Origin: Winslowiella iniecta
Lineage (GTDB): Bacteria; Pseudomonadota; Gammaproteobacteria; Enterobacterales; Enterobacteriaceae
DNA length: 64,000 nucleotides
Assembly (NCBI RefSeq): GCF_001267535.1
Contig: NZ_JRXE01000006.1
Location: 62,001-126,000, forward strand
Reading direction: 5' to 3'
The translations under genes and the position numbers were made by a program. The notes below the pieces were generated by a model that was not told where the DNA came from, did not search any database, and was given only the letters and a program-made list of their open reading frames with translations. Shown here piece after piece: positions 1 through 10,895 of the stretch (positions are counted from its first letter, which is position 1; each line of letters begins with the position of its first letter).

Positions 1-2609
1 GGATAGAAAAAATAATGAAAATAACTCAATCTTTTCACTTCTACATCTATTGCGATGAAACAGGTGTCATCACGATGAATAAAGATAAAGTCATTGACGG
101 GTAAGTTCAAAAATGCCTTATCGACAACTTCGTGGTATAATACATTGTGCTGCTCGCGCATATCTTGATAATGTTGTTCAAATTGCTGATATAATTCAGC
201 TCGGGTAGGATGCTTTTTTAGTGAGAATGATTTTGGATTGTGCTTTATATTATATTCTCGCAAGCTATGGGGTGTTTTTTGCGGTAGATATTGGTGTAAC
301 AGGGTAAAACCATCGTCAAGGTTGCGGATAATATCGCGAAAACTTTTGCAGTCGAGCATTCTGCGGGTTTGATAGTCCATTCTCCCTTGGGTTTTAACCA
401 ATAGTGATAAAGTATTAAAATCCTGGGGGGCGTAGATATCAATGTCGGGATAGGTTTTCTCAATGATATCATCCATAGTGATTATCGGTAGCATTTCAAG
501 TTGAATATCTTTTCTGTGATAGTCATTTGGATTCTTATTGATCGTGTCATATTCCTCTTTCAGGCCACCGACCAACTCAGCTTCTGAGGTATTAACATCG
601 GCATAATTACGAAAACGTGAGAAAACGAATCCATCAATAAATCCTTCCCTGAGTGCAGTGTCGATGTTATCTCTACGGAAATCGCGGTTTGTTGATAATT
701 TTTTGCCAATGTAGTTCCACAAGTAATAGCCATTTTTAGATATTAACGGCTCATGACCTCTGCCATTTTTTTCCATAAAAAGTAAATTTGGTACTATCTG
801 GGATAAAATGAATTCGGTGACCTTGCTCATGCCAAATCGACTGTGAATTCCTCTGGATAAATATTCTTTGGCGCACTCCTTACGTAAGTCGTTAAGGATA
901 TTTTTTATTGCGTCATTCTTCTTCTCCACGACAAACTTATACCAGCTGGAAATATAACCGGCGTGCAGTTTGATAATAATGTTGTCAATCTCTTCTGGGG
1001 AGTTGTTATTTTCATCACTCAACAGGTAAGACAATATAATTATCAGCTGATTATTCATGTTATGATAATCAACGCTTCTGAAGGTCGTAATGTTTAAGCT
1101 ATCCAGCAATCGGTCGCCACGAACGAGATCAAGATTGTTTTTCTCATCAAAGAGCCAGTTAAGCAATTCTGCCGCCAGGGTCGCTCCTGTATTATCTGAA
1201 GCGAGAAAACCTTTGATGGTGCCGATCATGTTGAAACAAATATTCCCCGCTTTATTTGCCCCATCCGCTTCCGGCGGTAGTTTTACTGCTGTCGGAGAGT
1301 GACGAAGATAGCGCACGCCCGCGACGGCTGCCAGCGTGACACCTGTTGCAGCGAGGGATAATGCCGTGCGTCCTTTCCACCATGCTGGAGATGCCGCAGC
1401 GCCAGCGATCGCGACGCCGGAAACCAGCAACGGCACGGATAGCGCAGTCGCTTCCGCCGCTGCGGGTATCATGGCGTTGTCTACCGTGTCCGCTGTGCGG
1501 TATGGGTGCGACAGTGGCCGGATATCTCTTCCGCCCAGTGGGCACACTGCCAGTTGCTGCTGTAAAATTTGCTGCTCTGTCTGCTGATAAGCCTGGTAAA
1601 AATGCGCGCTGTCATGATCTTTCTGTCGCAGAACCGCTTTCGGCAAACAGCGCAACACTGCGCGATTTAACGCCTTCTCCGCCAGATCCTGCCGATAAGC
1701 TTTGCCGTGAGTCTGCTGGTACCAGTTTTGTGTCTGCTGCTGATGGCGTCTGAGGTTATACCGCCGCTGATAATCCTCGCTTCTGGCGGAGAGTGCCCCC
1801 AGGCCCTGGATTATCTTCGCACCATGGGTGAGGACATTCCCCTGCGGAACCTTATCCGCTAACCCGCCGCTCAGGCGCAACATGGCATACAGGCCAACGA
1901 TTAGCGTGATGCCGGTGGCAACCAGCGTCGCAAAGCCACTCTCTGCACAGAGCTGTGTCACTGGCGTGAGTACCTGCTCGTGCAGGCTTAATAGCCAGCT
2001 GGGTTGCGTGATATCTGCCGCTGCGCAAATCGCGAGCCCGGTGCTAAGCAGAATTAAACAGCTGTCAGTCAGGCTTGCGCTGAGAGAAATATGCTGTCGT
2101 TGCAGCCAGACCACCAGCAGTGCTGGCAGGCTGGAGAGAATCGCTGCCGTTGAGGTTGCGCCCGCCACGGTGTGGATCAGCTGGTTAAGCAGTTCCATAC
2201 CGCCGAGATAGCCTGCCAGCGTGAGCAGTTCTTTGCCCGGCTGGCTGCAAATCAGCACGGCGGCCAGCAGTTTACTCAGATCGGGATGGATAACATTCAG
2301 CAAGGTGGTCGCCATGGCGGTCTGGCTAAGTAAATGAAGCTGATGATGGATAGCGTCCTTGACCTGCGAGGCGAGGGCGCTGAGTCGTGGCCACTGTGGC
2401 GATGTCGGCGTGAGCCAGGGCTGGGTATCCAGCGCGTCGAAGAACAGTTCTTCTTCAGCGCCGCCCTCGGTCGCCGTTAATAGCAGCGGAACATTGCAAA
2501 TACTGGCGAGCGGCAGAGAGCATAGGTCGGCGCGAGTGACTTTGACCGGCTCAGGTGTGACAGGGCTACCTACGATAACAGGAAGGTGGTTTATCATAAT
2601 AGTACTCAT
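1..2609 (-). CDS. Large protein of unknown function, C-terminus cut by the window edge
   Basis: An uninterrupted reading frame runs from ATG at 2609 to the left edge (869 codons, no stop), so the gene is partial. I do not recognise the family. Residues 1-100 are soluble. Hydrophobic stretches lie near 113-122, 152-170, 182-200, 225-246 and 388-432. Between them, at 278-360, is a Gln/Arg/Lys-rich, helix-prone part. From about residue 450 (position 1260) the DNA turns markedly AT-rich and the protein becomes hydrophilic, rich in Asn, Asp, Lys and Tyr. No signal peptide is evident. A second in-frame ATG at 2597 is possible; neither has a strong ribosome site. It follows the diflavin reductase gene but is separated from it by a terminator. 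The layout (membrane-interacting N-half, foreign-looking C-half) would suit a secreted or contact-delivered toxin or effector, but no motif proves this. Confidence 0.8.
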   Translation of the reverse strand, partial: MSTIMINHLPVIVGSPVTPEPVKVTRADLCSLPLASICNVPLLLTATEGGAEEELFFDALDTQPWLTPTSPQWPRLSALASQVKDAIHHQLHLLSQTAMATTLLNVIHPDLSKLLAAVLICSQPGKELLTLAGYLGGMELLNQLIHTVAGATSTAAILSSLPALLVVWLQRQHISLSASLTDSCLILLSTGLAICAAADITQPSWLLSLHEQVLTPVTQLCAESGFATLVATGITLIVGLYAMLRLSGGLADKVPQGNVLTHGAKIIQGLGALSARSEDYQRRYNLRRHQQQTQNWYQQTHGKAYRQDLAEKALNRAVLRCLPKAVLRQKDHDSAHFYQAYQQTEQQILQQQLAVCPLGGRDIRPLSHPYRTADTVDNAMIPAAAEATALSVPLLVSGVAIAGAAASPAWWKGRTALSLAATGVTLAAVAGVRYLRHSPTAVKLPPEADGANKAGNICFNMIGTIKGFLASDNTGATLAAELLNWLFDEKNNLDLVRGDRLLDSLNITTFRSVDYHNMNNQLIIILSYLLSDENNNSPEEIDNIIIKLHAGYISSWYKFVVEKKNDAIKNILNDLRKECAKEYLSRGIHSRFGMSKVTEFILSQIVPNLLFMEKNGRGHEPLISKNGYYLWNYIGKKLSTNRDFRRDNIDTALREGFIDGFVFSRFRNYADVNTSEAELVGGLKEEYDTINKNPNDYHRKDIQLEMLPIITMDDIIEKTYPDIDIYAPQDFNTLSLLVKTQGRMDYQTRRMLDCKSFRDIIRNLDDGFTLLHQYLPQKTPHSLREYNIKHNPKSFSLKKHPTRAELYQQFEQHYQDMREQHNVLYHEVVDKAFLNLPVNDFIFIHRDDTCFIAIDVEVKRLSYFHYFFY

Positions 2610-2687: not shown

Positions 2688-2712
2688 ATAAAAAAGGCGG
2701 CATAAAGCCGCC
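2688..2712 (-). terminator. Rho-independent terminator after the diflavin reductase gene
   Basis: On the minus strand a GGCGGC/GCCGCC stem with a five-base loop (2696-2712) is followed by a T-rich run (2688-2695). It lies 18 bases past the reductase stop codon and separates that gene from the unknown gene that starts at 2609. Confidence 0.85.
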
Positions 2713-2730
2713 TCTGGAAGGGATGTCAGA

Positions 2731-4488
2731 TTAGTAGACGTCGCGCAGATAGCGCTTCTCTTTCTTCAGTTTGTCGACATACTCCGCAGCGCCCTCTTCT
2801 GACAGGCCACCAAAGCGGGTAATCACTTCATACAGCGCATGGTCGACGTCTTTAGCCATACGCGAAGCGTCGCCACAGACATAGAAGTAAGCCCCTTGCT
2901 CCAGCCAGGCAAACAGCTCAGCACCTTGCTCCAGCATGCGGTTTTGCACGTAAATTTTTTCTGACTGATCGCGGGAAAATGCCAGGTCCAGCCGTGTCAG
3001 CAGTCCGCTCTGATGCCATGCCACCAGTTCATCCTGATAGATGTAATCATGCTCCTGATGCTGATCGCCAAACAGCAGCCAGTTCTTACCTGACGCGCCG
3101 GTGGCCTGACGCTCCTGTAAGAAGGCGCGGAACGGGGCGATACCGGTGCCGGGACCGACCATGATCATAGGTGCATCATCTTTCGCCGGTACGCGGAAGG
3201 CTTTATTTTGTGAAATAAAGATCGCCGGCTTTTCACCGCGGCCAACACGTTCGGCGAGGTAAGTGGAGCAGACGCCATTACGTGCGCGTCCTGAACTGTG
3301 GTAGCGCACGGAAGCAATGGTCAGATGCACCTGATTAGGATGCGCTTTCTGGCTGGAGGAGATCGAATAAGCACGATGCTGCAACGGACGCAGCAATGCC
3401 ACAAACTCCGGCACGCTCAGTGAACGGGTCAGCTCCAGTTGCAGCAGATCTAACGTGTCTTTGCCCCACAACCAGACGCCCATCGCATCTTTGTCGTCAT
3501 GTTGCAGAACATGGCGCAGTTCCTGGTTGGTGGTGTTCTGGCCGACCCAGTCGATCAACTTACGTGAAGGTTCAGAAATCTCGAACTGGTAAGTCAGCAG
3601 GTCGCCTAAACTGCGGTCGAAGCCAGGAACCGGCATATCGTAGTCGGCTTTCAGCTGCGTCAGCAGTAACTTAACTAACACGGCGTCATTGACCGGGAAC
3701 ACGCCCAGCGCGTCACCGGCTTCGTATTTCAGTCCACTGTCGGTCAGATCAAATTCAAAGTGGCGGATATCTTTGCCGGAGTCCGCGCCAGAAAGGCGTT
3801 TATTGGTAATTAATGCCGCAGCATACGGATTCTGTTTATTGCTGCCCGGAATCACCGGTGCTTCCGGTAAGTTCTCCAGTGCGGTACCGCTGCTGCCAGC
3901 GCTGGCAGCAAACTGTGGCATCGCGCCGCCGATCCAGGCTTCCGAAGGTTCTTCATAATCCACGTCACAGTCAATACGATCGGTCACGCGTTTGGCACCC
4001 AGCTGCTCCAGGCGCATATCGAAGAACTTACCAGCCTGGCAGAAGCCATCGTAGCCGGTATCACCAATCGCCAGCACGGCAAAGTGCATCTGCTCAAGGC
4101 GCGGCGCGGTGCTGGCGGAAATCGCATCCCAGAATAACTGCGCGTTATCCGGCATTTCGCCTTCGCCGTAGGTAGAGGTGATGATCAGCACATGACGCAT
4201 GGTCGCGAACACGTCAATATCAACTTCACCCAGCCCCTGCACCACAGGCACCAGCCCTTTGGCGCGTGCCGCTTTCGCTGCGCTTTGCGCCAGCGCTTCA
4301 GCATTGCCGGTCTGCGAACCAAACAGAATATGCAACTGAGTGGTCGCCGCAGCCGCCGCACCAGCGGTGGTCTGCTGCTTGTCTTCCAGTACCAGCAGGC
4401 GTGAATGTAAGCCAGCGAGGAAGCCCGCCAGCCAATATTTCTGCTCACCATTAAATGGCGCATCTTCAGGAATATAAGGAATCTTCAT
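2731..4488 (-). CDS. CysJ-type diflavin reductase (FMN/FAD/NADPH), probable electron donor to the adjacent glutamate synthase
   Basis: 585 residues from ATG 4488; an in-frame TTG at 4530 would add 14, and neither has a clear ribosome site. Order of domains: flavodoxin/FMN domain (SQTGNAEAL about 58-66), CysJ-like connecting and FAD domain (RAYSISSS about 372-379), NADPH domain (GPGTGIAPFRAF about 445-456; CGDASRMAKDV about 538-548). The C-terminal aromatic DVY end matches E. coli CysJ. Known CysJ proteins pass NADPH electrons through FAD and FMN to the sulfite reductase hemoprotein CysI, but no cysI or cysH is here. The gene instead lies 67 bases downstream of an oversized glutamate synthase chain and shares its strand and terminator. 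I infer that it replaces GltD as the reductase. A paralogous sulfite reductase alpha subunit remains possible. Confidence 0.85.
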   Translation of the reverse strand: MKIPYIPEDAPFNGEQKYWLAGFLAGLHSRLLVLEDKQQTTAGAAAAATTQLHILFGSQTGNAEALAQSAAKAARAKGLVPVVQGLGEVDIDVFATMRHVLIITSTYGEGEMPDNAQLFWDAISASTAPRLEQMHFAVLAIGDTGYDGFCQAGKFFDMRLEQLGAKRVTDRIDCDVDYEEPSEAWIGGAMPQFAASAGSSGTALENLPEAPVIPGSNKQNPYAAALITNKRLSGADSGKDIRHFEFDLTDSGLKYEAGDALGVFPVNDAVLVKLLLTQLKADYDMPVPGFDRSLGDLLTYQFEISEPSRKLIDWVGQNTTNQELRHVLQHDDKDAMGVWLWGKDTLDLLQLELTRSLSVPEFVALLRPLQHRAYSISSSQKAHPNQVHLTIASVRYHSSGRARNGVCSTYLAERVGRGEKPAIFISQNKAFRVPAKDDAPMIMVGPGTGIAPFRAFLQERQATGASGKNWLLFGDQHQEHDYIYQDELVAWHQSGLLTRLDLAFSRDQSEKIYVQNRMLEQGAELFAWLEQGAYFYVCGDASRMAKDVDHALYEVITRFGGLSEEGAAEYVDKLKKEKRYLRDVY

Positions 4489-4555
4489 CGGTTTTCTGTA
4501 CTCAATCCCGTTTTCAACATGTTCAGTCAATATTCACATTCAGTGTTGCTGGCAA

Positions 4556-7500
4556 TCAGGACAATTTCCCGACCGCCGCAGCTAATTCCGGCAATGCTGC
4601 ACGGGCAAACAGTTCTTCAAAGTCAGGCAGTCGTCCCAGAACTTCTCTGTTACGCGCATCCTGATAAATGATCCAGCCGTAAGTGGCCAGACTGTCCATT
4701 GAACGAATATTGCGTTGCGTCAGTGCCGCTTTGTAATCCGCCATACGCTTGGCGGCAATCAGGCACGAAAGTTCTTCATCACTGTAGTTTTCAATCGCCG
4801 AGCGGGCATGGCGTTGCAGCTTACTGATCAGGGCAAAATCTTCCGTCATCAGCAGGTTGCGCACCGCTTTCTCGACCGCCGGATCCTCAACAGAGGTGCC
4901 CTTCGGCAAGCGTGACAGGGCCAGCTGTTGCACGGTACTTAGTACGGTGTAGTTATTGAGCAACACAAACATTTCTGGCGTGTCGGTCGCACCGTAGCTC
5001 GGTACTGCGCCGTTGGCGATGGTAGTGCGGTTACGCCAGGCGTTCTTGAATTTGGTTACCTGATGGCTGGCCAGCGCGGTAGACAGCTCTTCCAGCAGAT
5101 CCTTACGGGTTTTAGCCTTCAGAATTTCAACGCTGTCCTGATACAGCAGCAGGGAACGCGGCATCACGAAGACAAAGTGCTGACACTCGGTCTCCCAGTG
5201 TTCCAGTAACCACGCCGCACGCTCAGAGCCGGTGGCTTCCAGATGCCAGTTCAGCATTGTCAGCACCGCTTGTTTGTGCACTTTTGCCATTTCATCGTCA
5301 TCAGCAATCGAGCCAAACAGCACCGAGTCGCCTGCGGCATGCGCAGCTAATGTGCCATACGGGTCGTACTGATATGCGAAACCGCCGCTCATACCGTTAC
5401 CAAATCCTTTACCGAAAGTACCGAGGTTGAGGATGGCACCGTTGGTCATATATTCGCAGCAGAAATCACCGACGCCTTCGACCACCGCCGTCGCACCGGA
5501 GTTACGCACCGCAAAGCGGTCACCGGCCTGGCCCTGGACGAACAGGCGACCGCCGGTCGCACCAAACAGCGCAAAGTTACCAATCAGCACGTTGCCGTCA
5601 GTATCCTGCGAGCCGCCGCCTGGTGAACGCACAATTATTTCTCCGCCGCACTGGCCTTTACCGACGCCATCGTTACAGGTGCCGCTATGGGTCAGCTGCA
5701 TGCCGTCATTACAGAACACGCCATACGACTGACCCGCAGAGCCGGAAGTGGAGATAGTGACGGTAGCCGGAGCCAGATAACGGCGTCCGCGATCGTCAGA
5801 CAGTGCCGCTGGCATGGTCTGCAACTGCGCGTCATCCAGCTGATGATTAAGCATGCGCTCGATATCAATCGCCAGCTGCCCGCCCACGCTCTTGTGGCGG
5901 TTATTCAGCGTAATGCCATCACCCAACTGGATGTGGGCTGCGCCCTGCGCCACCAGTGAGCCATTTAGCCGCGCTAACCAGCCTTCATCCAGCGCGAAAT
6001 CTTTCTCCAGATAGACCGGATGCGCAATTTTCTGCTCCGGCACCACGGTCAGCATTGCACGCAGGTCGAGTTTGCCGACTTCACGCGGATGATCCATCAG
6101 ATGCAGTAATTCGGAACGACCCCGCGCTTCACGCAGCGAGCGCAGACCCAGTCGCGCCAGCATTTCGCGTACTTCATGGGCGACGTTGATAAAGTACTGC
6201 GCCAGCTGACGCGGATCGCCATCAAAGGCTTCGGCATTGGTGGTCAGACCCGCCGGGCATTTGACGTTACAGTTCTTCGCCATCACACATTTCAGCATCA
6301 TCAGCGCGGTAGTTCCGAACTCAAAGCTGTCGCCGCCGAGCAGGGCGGATTTCACTACGTCGCTACCGGTTTGTTGTGCGCCGGAGCAGCGTAAAATGAC
6401 TTTCTCGCGCAGGCCGTTGGCACACAGCGCCTGATGAACTTCGGCGATGCCGATTTCTGCCACGCGTCCGGTGTATTTCAGACTGGTGACCGAAGCCGCG
6501 CCAGTTCCCCCGGTATTACCCGCGACGTTAATCACATCCGCGCCAGCTTTCGCCACGCCGACCGCGATGGTGCCGATCCCTTCTGAGGAAACCAGTTTGA
6601 CAATCACGCGTACACGCGCAGCTTTACAGTCATGAATCAGCTGAGCCAAATCTTCAATTGAATAGGTATCGTGGTGCGGAGGGGGGGAAACCAGCTCCAC
6701 GCCAGGTGTACCGCCACGCGCTGCCGCGATTTCTACCGTCACTTTTGCTGACGGTAACTGACCACCTTCGCCGGGTTTTGCGCCCTGGCCGATCTTAATC
6801 TCCAGCTCTTCCAGCATCGGGTCGGCCAGATAGGCAGCCCAGACACCGAAGCGGCCGGAAGCCAGCTGTTTGATGCGCGAGGCACGAATGGTGCCGTGAC
6901 GCGAATAGTGCTCGCCGCCTTCACCACAGTTACTCATGCCGCCAACCATATTGGTGCCGTGCGCCACCGCTTCGTGTGCCGGAGCAACCAGCGCACCGTG
7001 GCTCATCGCGCCCGAGGCGAAGGTGCGGGTGATTTCGCTGGCAGGCTGCACTTCACTTAACGGCAGTGAAGGTGAAGTGGTGAAAATACGCGCCAGATAG
7101 TCGGCCGCTTTGCCGTGCGCACTGACTTGCAGGCCACCGGCAACCATTTCCGTATGCGCGATATCTGCGGCAAAACGGTTTTTCAGCGCGGTCGACAGCG
7201 CCGCCAGACGCTCAGCTTCTGGCTTCAGCCCTTCAATGGCGTCAGTCAGGCGCAGAGTGAACAGGCCTGCATTGTCCGCGTGGGTTTCGCAAACCAGTCC
7301 GCGAATGGCGAAACCATTGTTGATTAACGAGTAGCGACTCAGCTTGCGGGAGAATTCCGCCAGGCTATCGACATGGGTCAGATCGGCCGGGAAGGCGAGA
7401 ATATCGCGCAGTGCGGCCGGGCGACGTTTACGTTCTTCATGCATCAGGCTGGAGAACTGACGATAATCCGGCGTGATGGTAAAGTTATCGATCACCTCGT

Positions 7501-10087
7501 CAGGAATACGCTCAAAGCTGCTGTCGGCAAAAGATTTGGCTTTGATATTGAAGGCGTTATCCAGCCTGGCCAGCGTCAGCAGGCGGATAAACTGATCGTC
7601 CTCGCGTGGCTTATCGGCGAAGCGGATCGGCTGCTCAGTCATATCAATAAAGGTTCGCACCGCAATGGTGCCGTAGGAGTGCCCGGCACCTTCTGCGCGC
7701 TCTTTAAACAGACCCAGCAATGGCACTTCAGACTCACCTTTGATCTTCAGCGCGCTCTGATGCCAGTCCACCGCCATCTGGGCGATAGTCGCAAAGCTGG
7801 CGCCGCCGACCGGCGTTTTAATATTCGGGAAGTATTTCTTCAGCACCGCATCGTCGGTATCGAGGAAGTTTGGCTCGAAGAACTCACCACAGCTATAGCT
7901 TTCCACGGTACACAGACCAACTTTACCCATGGTTTTCATCAGCGCTTTTTCCGCTGCTTTGGCATAGCGCTTAAATGCCTTATTGCCTTCTTCGCCTTCG
8001 CCGTATTTCTCTTCAGCGCGCATCTGAACGCCCAGCGGATAAATCGCTGATGCGCCAAAGCCAAGCGTCGCGGCAATATGGTGTGATGAAATGCTCTGGC
8101 CGCTTTCAACCACCAGCGAGACATCAAGACGCAGACCTTCCTGCACTAAGCGCTGGTTGATGGCGGAGACCACCAGCAGCATTGGCATCGCGGCGCGGGT
8201 AGAGGAGATATGACGGTCAGTAATCACCGCGATACCGCCCTGGGCACGCGCAAACTCGACCACTTGCTGCGCCAGATCGTCGATGGCGTTTTCCAGCGCG
8301 CGGGCATTGTCCTGACGGCTTTGCGCGTCAGTGCCGATGATTGGCTGGTACAACATTTCAAAACGCGCATAAGGCGCGACTTTCTGCTCGCGTAATTGCA
8401 GCATATCCAGATGGGTCAGGATCGGCGTCGGTACGATAATCTGCTGTCCCTTGCTGCGTCCCAGATGCGGCTTGGCACCCAGCGCCACGCGCAAGGTCAT
8501 ACCGTCAGCTTCACGGATGGAGTCCAGCGGTGGGTTGGTTACCTGGGCAAAGCGTTGGGAGAAGTAGTGCGCCATGCCGCCTTCATGATCGGATAACCCG
8601 TTGATCGCGTTGCCATAGCCCATAGCTGAAATCTTTTCAGCGCCGGTAGACAACATCGGGTCCATCATAAATTTGAAGCTTTCCTGGTTGTAGTAGTAAG
8701 CCACAAAACGTTGGTAAGCTTTCAGATCGCCGCTGTAGCGCAGTGGCGAGCCCTGTTGCTCGGCAGGTACTACGGGCAAATCGCCTAAGGTTACGCGCGC
8801 TTGCTCCAGCAGTGCCGGGTAATCTTTTTCCGCCGCCAGTTTTTCCAGTGCTTCCAGCGTGGTGTAGCTGCGTTTTTCACTGTGATCGTAATACAGCATG
8901 CCGCCAGCTTCGATACGACCACGGCGTAATACGCTCTCCGGCGGGAAGGCGATCTGACCTGCTTCGGACATCGCGCCGATATACTCAGCCGTTTCCACTG
9001 AGCGCAGCGGACGCAGACCGAGGCGGTCAAGACGTGCGCCGATGATGTCACCATTACCGAAAATCAGCGCCGCCGGGCCATCGTTTTTCTCTTCATATAA
9101 AGAGAAGTATTCCAGCATGGCGCGCACATTGTCAGACAGCGAGTCGTCGTTCTCCCACGCTGGTGGCATCATGGATACCACGGCATTGATCAGGTCGAGA
9201 TTATCTTCCATCAGACGGCTGTGAATACTCTGATCGAGGCGCGAACTGTCAGACTGCCCCTTTGGACGGACGATTTTCTTACCACGCGCCAGTGCCAGTG
9301 CGGCTTCGGCAATACGGTTTTTACGGTCGGTATTCAGCTCACCGTTGTGCGCCATCAGACGGAACGGCTGCGCCATGGTGGTGTGCGGATCGGTGTTGGT
9401 CGAAAAACGCGTATGGAAGAACAGACCGCGCACCTGGTGATCGCTATCGGTCAGATCCTTAAAGTAAGGGATGACTTCATTAGAGTTCAGACGCGCTTTC
9501 AGAACCTGCGTGCGCGAAGAGAGCGACAGCGGATACAGACCGCCAAATTCGCTTTCGGTAAAGGCGCGCGACTCGATATCCAGCAGTGCGCGGTAGATGC
9601 GCTGTTCGAAACCATTCTGATCATCGACATCCTGCGGGGCAGCAAACACCCACTGAACGATCGGTAACTGAAACTGGATTGCAGCAGGACGCAGCACGCT
9701 GGCATCCAGTGGCAGATCACGTTTGACGATTATCGGGAAGCCATACACGGCGAAGGTTTCTTCCACCAGGCGCTCGGCATTGGCACGTAACGCCGGATCT
9801 TTCGGCACAAAGAAGTTACCCACGCCGAAACGGCCGAACTCCAGCGGCTGGCCGGTAATTTTTCTAAAAAAGTGCAACGAGATATCGACGTTAACACCTG
9901 CGCCGTCACCTACGCCTTCAGCAGACATGCCGCCGCGGTGAGGTACGGTGCAAAGCGCACTGTGCGCCATTTGCAGTATCTCATGGGTTTGCTCGCCGTC
10001 CTTACGTGTAATAAAACCCACGCCACAGCTATCACTTTCTTTTGATGGATCATACAAGCCATAGGGATACGGGGTTTGATTGGACAT
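4556..10087 (-). CDS. Oversized glutamate synthase large chain (GltB-like, 1843 aa)
   Basis: Glutamine-dependent glutamate synthase: an N-terminal class II amidotransferase releases ammonia from glutamine, which is channelled to an FMN site that makes glutamate from 2-oxoglutarate. Cys21 in DSCGVGFI is the expected nucleophile exposed after removal of a 20-residue propeptide. Then come the HNGE motif of the amidotransferase, the central and FMN domains (GGTGAASVTSLKYTG near 1195), Cys1267/1273/1277 as probable 3Fe-4S ligands, and the glycine-rich beta-helix (about 1475-1580). E. coli GltB is about 1486 residues. This protein has roughly 190 extra C-terminal residues (after about 1650) plus added length upstream of the FMN domain. 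The ribosome site AAGGAGG precedes ATG 10087. It stands where E. coli has gltBD, but gltD is missing and a diflavin reductase gene follows. The family is certain, the electron donor is inferred. Confidence 0.93.
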   Translation of the reverse strand: MSNQTPYPYGLYDPSKESDSCGVGFITRKDGEQTHEILQMAHSALCTVPHRGGMSAEGVGDGAGVNVDISLHFFRKITGQPLEFGRFGVGNFFVPKDPALRANAERLVEETFAVYGFPIIVKRDLPLDASVLRPAAIQFQLPIVQWVFAAPQDVDDQNGFEQRIYRALLDIESRAFTESEFGGLYPLSLSSRTQVLKARLNSNEVIPYFKDLTDSDHQVRGLFFHTRFSTNTDPHTTMAQPFRLMAHNGELNTDRKNRIAEAALALARGKKIVRPKGQSDSSRLDQSIHSRLMEDNLDLINAVVSMMPPAWENDDSLSDNVRAMLEYFSLYEEKNDGPAALIFGNGDIIGARLDRLGLRPLRSVETAEYIGAMSEAGQIAFPPESVLRRGRIEAGGMLYYDHSEKRSYTTLEALEKLAAEKDYPALLEQARVTLGDLPVVPAEQQGSPLRYSGDLKAYQRFVAYYYNQESFKFMMDPMLSTGAEKISAMGYGNAINGLSDHEGGMAHYFSQRFAQVTNPPLDSIREADGMTLRVALGAKPHLGRSKGQQIIVPTPILTHLDMLQLREQKVAPYARFEMLYQPIIGTDAQSRQDNARALENAIDDLAQQVVEFARAQGGIAVITDRHISSTRAAMPMLLVVSAINQRLVQEGLRLDVSLVVESGQSISSHHIAATLGFGASAIYPLGVQMRAEEKYGEGEEGNKAFKRYAKAAEKALMKTMGKVGLCTVESYSCGEFFEPNFLDTDDAVLKKYFPNIKTPVGGASFATIAQMAVDWHQSALKIKGESEVPLLGLFKERAEGAGHSYGTIAVRTFIDMTEQPIRFADKPREDDQFIRLLTLARLDNAFNIKAKSFADSSFERIPDEVIDNFTITPDYRQFSSLMHEERKRRPAALRDILAFPADLTHVDSLAEFSRKLSRYSLINNGFAIRGLVCETHADNAGLFTLRLTDAIEGLKPEAERLAALSTALKNRFAADIAHTEMVAGGLQVSAHGKAADYLARIFTTSPSLPLSEVQPASEITRTFASGAMSHGALVAPAHEAVAHGTNMVGGMSNCGEGGEHYSRHGTIRASRIKQLASGRFGVWAAYLADPMLEELEIKIGQGAKPGEGGQLPSAKVTVEIAAARGGTPGVELVSPPPHHDTYSIEDLAQLIHDCKAARVRVIVKLVSSEGIGTIAVGVAKAGADVINVAGNTGGTGAASVTSLKYTGRVAEIGIAEVHQALCANGLREKVILRCSGAQQTGSDVVKSALLGGDSFEFGTTALMMLKCVMAKNCNVKCPAGLTTNAEAFDGDPRQLAQYFINVAHEVREMLARLGLRSLREARGRSELLHLMDHPREVGKLDLRAMLTVVPEQKIAHPVYLEKDFALDEGWLARLNGSLVAQGAAHIQLGDGITLNNRHKSVGGQLAIDIERMLNHQLDDAQLQTMPAALSDDRGRRYLAPATVTISTSGSAGQSYGVFCNDGMQLTHSGTCNDGVGKGQCGGEIIVRSPGGGSQDTDGNVLIGNFALFGATGGRLFVQGQAGDRFAVRNSGATAVVEGVGDFCCEYMTNGAILNLGTFGKGFGNGMSGGFAYQYDPYGTLAAHAAGDSVLFGSIADDDEMAKVHKQAVLTMLNWHLEATGSERAAWLLEHWETECQHFVFVMPRSLLLYQDSVEILKAKTRKDLLEELSTALASHQVTKFKNAWRNRTTIANGAVPSYGATDTPEMFVLLNNYTVLSTVQQLALSRLPKGTSVEDPAVEKAVRNLLMTEDFALISKLQRHARSAIENYSDEELSCLIAAKRMADYKAALTQRNIRSMDSLATYGWIIYQDARNREVLGRLPDFEELFARAALPELAAAVGKLS

Positions 10088-10551
10088 CGAGGGCCTCCTT
10101 AAATTACTGCTTTGACATTACTTTTATTGTTTCAAACACAGAGCGCCATCGCGTCAGCCTGAGCGGATTCTGTATCATTTTTTTGAGCGCTAACACGCGG
10201 GCGCCGTCACTCCGAACATTTCACTTAGCGAAAGTCTAAAACGTCCATGAGTGGGGGCTTGCTCTCTACTTTCCGGGTCTCTTAGATGGAGATAACTTGC
10301 ATCATGAGGGAGTCTTCTTGCTGCATAGATATGCCGAGACACTGGCCCGTCAGAAATGCATCCAGCGGATTTCCAACTTATCGGGAAAGCGTACAGAGGT
10401 CAAATAGCGTTCTTACTTATGCCTTTTTAAGTCTTTGTGTGTTTATGTTGTTGAAATTTATGAATTTAATGCTTATTTTTATCGGTATCGGGTAAGCTAA
10501 ATTGACCTGAGAAGTGTGAGCTGACTCACTATAGTGCAGACAGCAAATACC

Positions 10552-10568
10552 TGCACCATGCTGGTGCT
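10552..10568. promoter_or_regulatory. NtrC (GlnG)-binding site, near-perfect consensus
   Basis: TGCACCATGCTGGTGCT is a 7-3-7 palindrome that fits the NtrC operator pattern TGCACCA-N3-TGGTGCA; E. coli glnA site 1 differs only in the three-base spacer. It lies 465 bases upstream of the glutamate synthase start, a distance compatible with an enhancer. Binding is inferred from sequence only. Confidence 0.75.
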
Positions 10569-10895
10569 GACGGTAATTACAGCACGATCTGCTGATAAAA
10601 TCCCCTTTGCCGCAGGATGAAACTGTTTTTGCCTGGTGTGCATATTTGAAGTAAATAGCGACCCATCATTAGTAAAATTAATCACGCCAGAACTGATTAA
10701 AATTTCGCTAAAGATGAATGATTATTCGTTTTGATATGGGGAGGCCGGACGACAGAGCAAGGTCATCGTAATAAGAAGCAAAAATTGCGCAGAAAAGCCC
10801 ATTTACACAGGCGGCTCATCAGATTAGGCGCTTGCAAAAATTAGTCAATAGCTTTCCTGGGGTAATTGCATAAAGCCCGCGCCAGGCGTGGCCTT

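Follow-up and report, generated by a model that had tools for sequence, protein, structure and literature searches.

A GltB-type gene and a diflavin reductase gene lie side by side in W. iniecta

The window analysed here is a stretch of 64,000 nucleotides of Winslowiella iniecta (contig NZ_JRXE01000006.1, positions 62,001 to 126,000 of the forward strand). The following features lie at the locus, listed in the direction of transcription:

10295..10730, minus strand: stretch upstream of the pair, homologous to the upstream region of canonical gltBD in the genus
4556..10087, minus strand: enlarged GltB-type glutamate synthase large subunit (the giant GltB), an ORF of 1843 residues with four GltB Pfam domains
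4489..4555, minus strand: gap of 67 bases between the GltB stop and the reductase ATG, read from the sequence
2731..4488, minus strand: CysJ-like diflavin (FMN/FAD/NADPH) reductase of 585 residues, with flavodoxin, FAD_binding_1 and NAD_binding_1 domains (Pfam)
2693..2715, minus strand: terminator-like hairpin just after the reductase (pattern scan and sequence)

The arrangement given in the preliminary description, a GltB relative of 1843 residues and then a diflavin reductase 67 bases further on the same strand, was confirmed by the ORFs, the Pfam matches and the ATG at 4488. The listed reductase ORF has 599 residues and begins at a TTG at 4530, but the alignment of its relatives starts at about the ATG at 4488, for a length of 585 residues. 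A pattern scan found no terminator-like hairpin inside the 67-base gap and one after the reductase, in agreement with the earlier claim of a single terminator for the pair; the scan yielded 11 sites in the region where shuffles would give 8.4, and the call at 2693-2715 rests on its position and T tail. Further downstream, a large ORF on the minus strand runs off the window edge (window 1-2609, 869 residues within the window). In L079 it can be followed over 2447 residues, as far as that locus was read. It has no Pfam match, and among the loci compared only L078 and L079 showed kin of it.

No gltD or cysI was found beside the pair at the locus, as had been claimed. Whole-genome search revealed no second full GltB, the two other matches being short and weak, and no Fer4_20 (GltD) domain, with a search that detected this domain in 9 of 14 control genomes, among them E. 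coli. The same genome carries a separate CysJ and CysI pair on contig C18. The search for separate gltBD and cysJI genes that the preliminary description had proposed returned the giant as the only full GltB and a cysJI elsewhere. Two outcomes that would have refuted its reading, namely that the reductase is the only CysJ of the genome with cysI elsewhere, or that the synthase works with a distant GltD, were not what we found: CysJ-CysI is separate, and the genome yielded no GltD domain.

The reductase is related to CysJ and forms a clade of its own

The reductase has the same FMN-FAD/NADPH domain order as CysJ (SiR-FP), resembles it over most of its length, and has 6efv and 9c91 as its closest solved relatives. 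However, its identity to the CysJ of the genome is only about 40%, and its partner is GltB rather than CysI. With the TIGR01931 cysJ model it scored 613 bits, under the cut-off of 668, while the genome's own CysJ reached 912 bits; all four relatives scanned were likewise under the cut-off, one of them by 7 bits. In a tree, the reductases (20 rows) formed their own clade beside five CysJ (support 100). The NF004859 / PRK06214 model, 'sulfite reductase subunit alpha', was over its cut-off in the reductase and in three of the four relatives, but its best stretch on the reductase covers only about the C-terminal two thirds, and the sulfite reductase that its name implies is unsupported for this reductase.

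We then compared 89 reductases of 555-660 residues, one genome being counted twice. The R-YSISS and GPGTG-APFR motifs and the FMN loop STYG[ED]G occurred in all 89, CGDA in 88, and the narrower pattern ST-GEGE-P[DE] in 67, while a C-x2-C-x2-4-C motif was found in none.

The giant GltB keeps the catalytic and cluster cysteines and carries two additional regions

All four Pfam domains of the giant GltB were over their cut-offs and in order: GATase_2 (21-423), Glu_syn_central (460-738), Glu_synthase (995-1315) and GXGXG (1427-1599). Its score with the PRK11750 equivalog model was 1060.6 bits, just over the cut-off of 1047, and the Tsukamurella relative scored 986, under that cut-off. The nearest solved structures in a sequence search were glutamate synthase large chains. 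The parts of the protein considered below are:

10025..10027, minus strand: codon of Cys21, which would become the N-terminal nucleophile of the glutaminase domain once the leader is removed
6257..6289, minus strand: iron-sulfur cluster loop C1267-x5-C1273-x3-C1277, its three Cys present in 90 of 90 giants
7088..7675, minus strand: insert of about 200 residues (about aa 805-1000) between the central and FMN domains, from alignments
4559..5155, minus strand: giant-specific C-terminal extension of about 200 residues (about aa 1645-1843), predicted to be all-helical

Cys21 aligns with the first residue of the A. brasilense GltB 1ea0. It and the three cluster cysteines are invariant in the 90 full-length giants, a set in which two genomes are counted twice and ORFs outside 1780-1895 residues are left out. 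The spacing of the cluster cysteines is C-x5-C-x3-C in all 90 giants, whereas it is C-x5-C-x4-C in 13 of 13 canonical GltB taken from the same loci, one genome being counted twice; by alignment, the giant loop is one residue shorter than those of 7mfm, 1ea0, 6s6s, 2vdc and 1llw. The QGAKPGEGGQLP and SPPPHHD-YSIEDL stretches of the giant match solved glutamate synthases, and no counterpart of the 1llw stretch between chain residues of about 914 and 932 was found in the alignment. This stretch of the FMN domain is what we take to be the ferredoxin loop.

The insert is present in the giants and absent from the canonical GltB aligned, and neither it nor the C-terminal extension gave a significant Pfam match or PDB sequence match. 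In a partial predicted model covering residues 739-1843, of middling quality (mean pLDDT 65), the helices of the extension mostly have a pLDDT of 76-90, and the best structural match is to glutamate synthases. In a tree, the giants (19 rows) group in a single clade, separate from seven canonical GltB (support 100, with a long-branch warning).

The giant pair replaced gltBD at its own locus within the genus

Among 36 genomes of the genus, 25 carry the giant pair and no GltD, 10 carry canonical gltBD and no pair, and one has neither; none carries both. The one with neither (G004, 3.4 Mb) also lacks a Fer4_20 match. In the 25 genomes the giant is at least 88% identical to the query GltB (98% in G018), and the reductase is at least 83% identical and, by coordinates, adjacent to the giant in every case. 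In the other 11 genomes, the reductase query finds only a match at the level of a true CysJ (39-43%). In each of the 10 canonical genomes Fer4_20 matches a GltD-sized frame of 475 residues, and no GltD-sized Fer4_20 protein was found in the 25 pair-bearing genomes: 22 of them are without any match above the cut-off, and in G019, G025 and G030 the only frames with Fer4_20 are about 650-660 and 1050-1100 residues long.

Both GltB forms adjoin ArcB in the 17 genus genomes that were read further (11 giant, 6 canonical). The statement that the pair stands at the usual gltBD locus thus holds: of the 10 canonical genomes six were looked at, and in all six gltBD adjoins the same ArcB gene. Moreover, about 435 bases of the upstream region (10295-10730) are homologous between giant-bearing and canonical genomes; blastn matched L089 and L091 at 71-73% along some 450 bases, and gave weaker or shorter matches to L088, L090, L092 and L093. 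Canonical genomes match one another nearly to the start codon, while the matching between giant-bearing and canonical genomes ends about 150-200 bases before it. These results show that the giant pair replaced gltBD at its own locus within the genus, and the simplest reading of the alignment is that the coding pair was swapped in beneath the old upstream region.

The pair occurs in other bacteria and on plasmids of two phyla

The giant was found in 4 of 369 genomes of the class, the source genome included, and in 6 of 398 in the phylum. The reductase lies directly downstream of the giant on the same strand in 7 of 7 genomes (G055, G207, G307, G352, G606, G783 and G800), and in one of these, Vibrio fortis (G055), canonical gltBD stands right beside the pair. 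Scanning named genomes with an alignment of the cluster loop yielded at least 546 relatives, of which 80 were kept; these are mostly methanotrophs by title, with one Methylophaga, and some are titled just gammaproteobacterium, proteobacterium or bacterium. The reductase is adjacent to the giant in 70 of the 80 loci kept of at least 546 (69 by ORF), a count that includes L160, where only the first 39 reductase residues precede the contig end. In four loci (L119, L120, L124 and L138), the contig ends inside the giant or about 110 bases past it. In the remaining six, the giant has no adjacent reductase and no contig end accounts for this: in L153 canonical gltBD stands between giant and reductase, in L166 and L170 a different contig of the genome carries the reductase, after gltD, and in L116, L152 and L157 no reductase was found in the stretches read. 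The preliminary description had regarded its reading as refuted if the pairing were not conserved; it is conserved in 25 of 25 pair-bearing genus genomes, in the 70 of 80 loci above and on plasmids of two phyla.

The plasmid-borne pairs are those of Shinella (two records), Neorhizobium, Sinorhizobium sp. BG8, Ketogulonicigenium vulgare (four records) and the actinomycete Tsukamurella tyrosinosolvens. In four annotated plasmid records, the two genes are 4-16 bases apart or overlap by 4. Annotations on the plasmids read 'glutamate synthase-related protein' or gltB, together with 'sulfite reductase ... alpha' or cysJ.

Several loci depart from the simple pair. Where giant and reductase are apart, canonical gltBD was seen between them or next to the reductase (L153/L201 of Crenothrix sp. 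D3, L166 with L208, and L170 with L202). In two methanotroph contigs (L147 and L171) the ORF of the giant or the reductase is in pieces, from sequencing error or decay. On plasmid p2 of Paracoccus sp. TOH (L204), a diflavin reductase of 49% identity has genes of glutamine-synthetase type in its vicinity; the genes shown there include no GltB, and this reductase may have another partner. G352 carries, besides the giant pair, a GltD that is 60% identical to the canonical Erwinia GltD (L209:7047-8447); the 15 kb read there contain no GltB.

Fer4_20 was above its cut-off in 8 of 26 giant-bearing genomes (V. fortis, G352 and six of 22 from the named-genome scan); in these eight, therefore, a protein other than the reductase could also be the donor. 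The other 18 showed no match above the cut-off, five of them having a weak match below it. No Fer4_20 was found in eight further genomes, five of them of the Methylotuvimicrobium genus and the others G606, G800 and G783. In Methylococcus capsulatus Bath, gltB and gltD are both named in the portion of the source consulted (PMC10623323), and hence not every methanotroph relies on the pair.

The two genes diverged together and were probably exchanged between lineages

Pairwise distances of GltB and reductase across 80 genomes correlated with r = 0.98, of which relatedness alone gives some part. The correlation was 0.91 in the 56 loci of the named-genome scan and 0.97 in the 24 others (permutation p 0.001 in both). 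A clade of gammaproteobacterial giants was rejected (p-AU 6e-5), and the giant studied here shares about 70% identity with the Rhizobiaceae form and 55% with the methanotroph form. Both results fit horizontal transfer, by which the pair would have been acquired in this lineage.

NADPH-dependent glutamate synthase activity is tabulated for a Methylotuvimicrobium strain in which the giant is the only full GltB found

The giant is the only full GltB in 6 of 6 genomes of the Methylotuvimicrobium genus, one of which is 79% complete, and no Fer4_20 was found in any of the six (G307 and five others). One of the genomes with the pair, M. alcaliphilum 20Z (G820), is without another full GltB and without Fer4_20. 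For this strain, Table 3 of PMC5802761, which takes the value from a PhD thesis, gives an NADPH-dependent glutamate synthase activity of 14 +/- 1 nmol/min/mg, and glutamate dehydrogenase values of 4 (NADH) and 3 (NADPH) stand in the same table. Through gene content, this activity is indirectly tied to the pair. The genome announcements of Methylomonas denitrificans and Methylomicrobium album, in the portions consulted, name glnA and gltB and no gltD (PMC5920175, PMC3624686).

A probable glutamate synthase with a diflavin reductase in place of GltD

Taken together, we consider it very probable that the pair works as an NADPH-dependent glutamate synthase whose electrons enter through the diflavin reductase, which stands in for GltD and its two [4Fe-4S] clusters. 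Gene content, adjacency, replacement of gltBD, co-divergence, the conserved catalytic and cluster cysteines and the finding of no GltD are all direct observations. The pairing, the co-divergence and the finding of no GltD domain in this genome support the view of the pair as a glutamate synthase that the preliminary description had put forward; with it we infer, as the most likely route, an NADPH-FAD-FMN electron flow. The reductase would take hydride from NADPH onto its FAD and pass the electrons on to its flavodoxin-like FMN domain, which would dock on the giant GltB and reduce its cluster, presumably [3Fe-4S], and this cluster would in turn reduce the GltB FMN. The giant would split glutamine at Cys21 and channel the ammonia internally to 2-oxoglutarate, and its FMN would reduce the resulting 2-iminoglutarate to glutamate, the expected product of the pair. 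GltD would not be needed, and, by analogy with GltBD (PMC8097209, consulted in part), the FAD and the two [4Fe-4S] clusters of that subunit would fall away.

The giant pair has in common with the GltB/GltD enzymes of E. coli and Azospirillum brasilense (6s6s, 1ea0) the glutaminase, central, FMN and GXGXG domains, the N-terminal Cys, a three-Cys cluster loop, NADPH as presumed donor and the genus locus. Unlike these enzymes, it has a diflavin reductase instead of GltD with its two [4Fe-4S] clusters, and the giant differs from their GltB in its C-x5-C-x3-C spacing, its insert and its C-terminal extension. The ferredoxin-dependent enzyme (Fd-GltS) of Synechocystis (1llw/1ofd) is likewise of GltB type without GltD and receives its electrons from a separate carrier, but the giant is without the 1llw stretch at about 914-932, carries extra domains, and has a co-encoded NADPH diflavin reductase as its presumed donor.

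We weighed three other explanations. It is very unlikely that the giant is a ferredoxin- or free-flavodoxin-dependent synthase whose neighbouring reductase serves another acceptor or only recycles the carrier. Fd-GltS enzymes do function without GltD (PMC8097209, consulted in part), and giant and reductase are apart in a few genomes, but the two genes co-diverge strongly and occur jointly in two phyla, no counterpart of the 1llw stretch was found in the giant, and the tabulated 20Z activity is with NADPH (PMC5802761, consulted in part).

A very small chance is left to the idea that the pair aminates another 2-oxoacid or makes some other product and is not the glutamate synthase. The two extra domains of the giant, which have no assigned role, and the canonical gltBD retained beside the pair in some genomes would suit such a function; however, within the genus the pair substitutes for gltBD on a one-to-one basis, the giant is the only full GltB in all six Methylotuvimicrobium genomes, among them the strain with the tabulated activity, and the giant shares its QGAKPGEGGQLP and SPPPHHD-YSIEDL stretches with solved glutamate synthases. 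That the reductase is an ordinary CysJ serving CysI and stands beside GltB by chance is scarcely credible: despite its CysJ similarity across most of its length, this is contradicted by the separate cysJI of the genome, by scores below the CysJ equivalog cut-off in the reductase and in 4 of 4 relatives, by the clade of its own (20 rows versus 5) and by a GltB linkage that is conserved across phyla.

We think it somewhat more probable than otherwise that the NADPH-dependent pair represents a further class of glutamate synthase, a GltB with docking domains of its own and a dedicated diflavin reductase, beside GltBD, Fd-GltS and the fused NADH enzyme. The electron inputs listed in a review, consulted in part, are GltD for NADPH, ferredoxin, and a fused GltD-type part in the NADH form (PMC8097209). 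Consistent with the earlier statement that no characterised enzyme of this make-up was known, the open literature searched gave no description of a glutamate synthase made of GltB and a diflavin reductase, and the annotated records seen name the two as separate, unrelated genes.

Glutamate synthase has a central place in nitrogen assimilation. If our reading is true, the electron-input half of a complex iron-sulfur flavoenzyme would be exchangeable wholesale, the sulfite reductase annotation of the partner would be corrected, and metabolic models of methanotrophs in biotechnology would be affected. The pair may also explain the methanotroph genome announcements that, in the portions consulted, name gltB without gltD (PMC5920175, PMC3624686). 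As a further class, the enzyme would hold 3 cluster irons per unit instead of 11 and, speculatively, may be iron-sparing and more oxygen-tolerant. A two-gene cassette would then have spread between phyla and replaced gltBD at its own locus, and many gammaproteobacterial methanotrophs, like many species of the Erwinia group, would have the pair as their main glutamate synthase.
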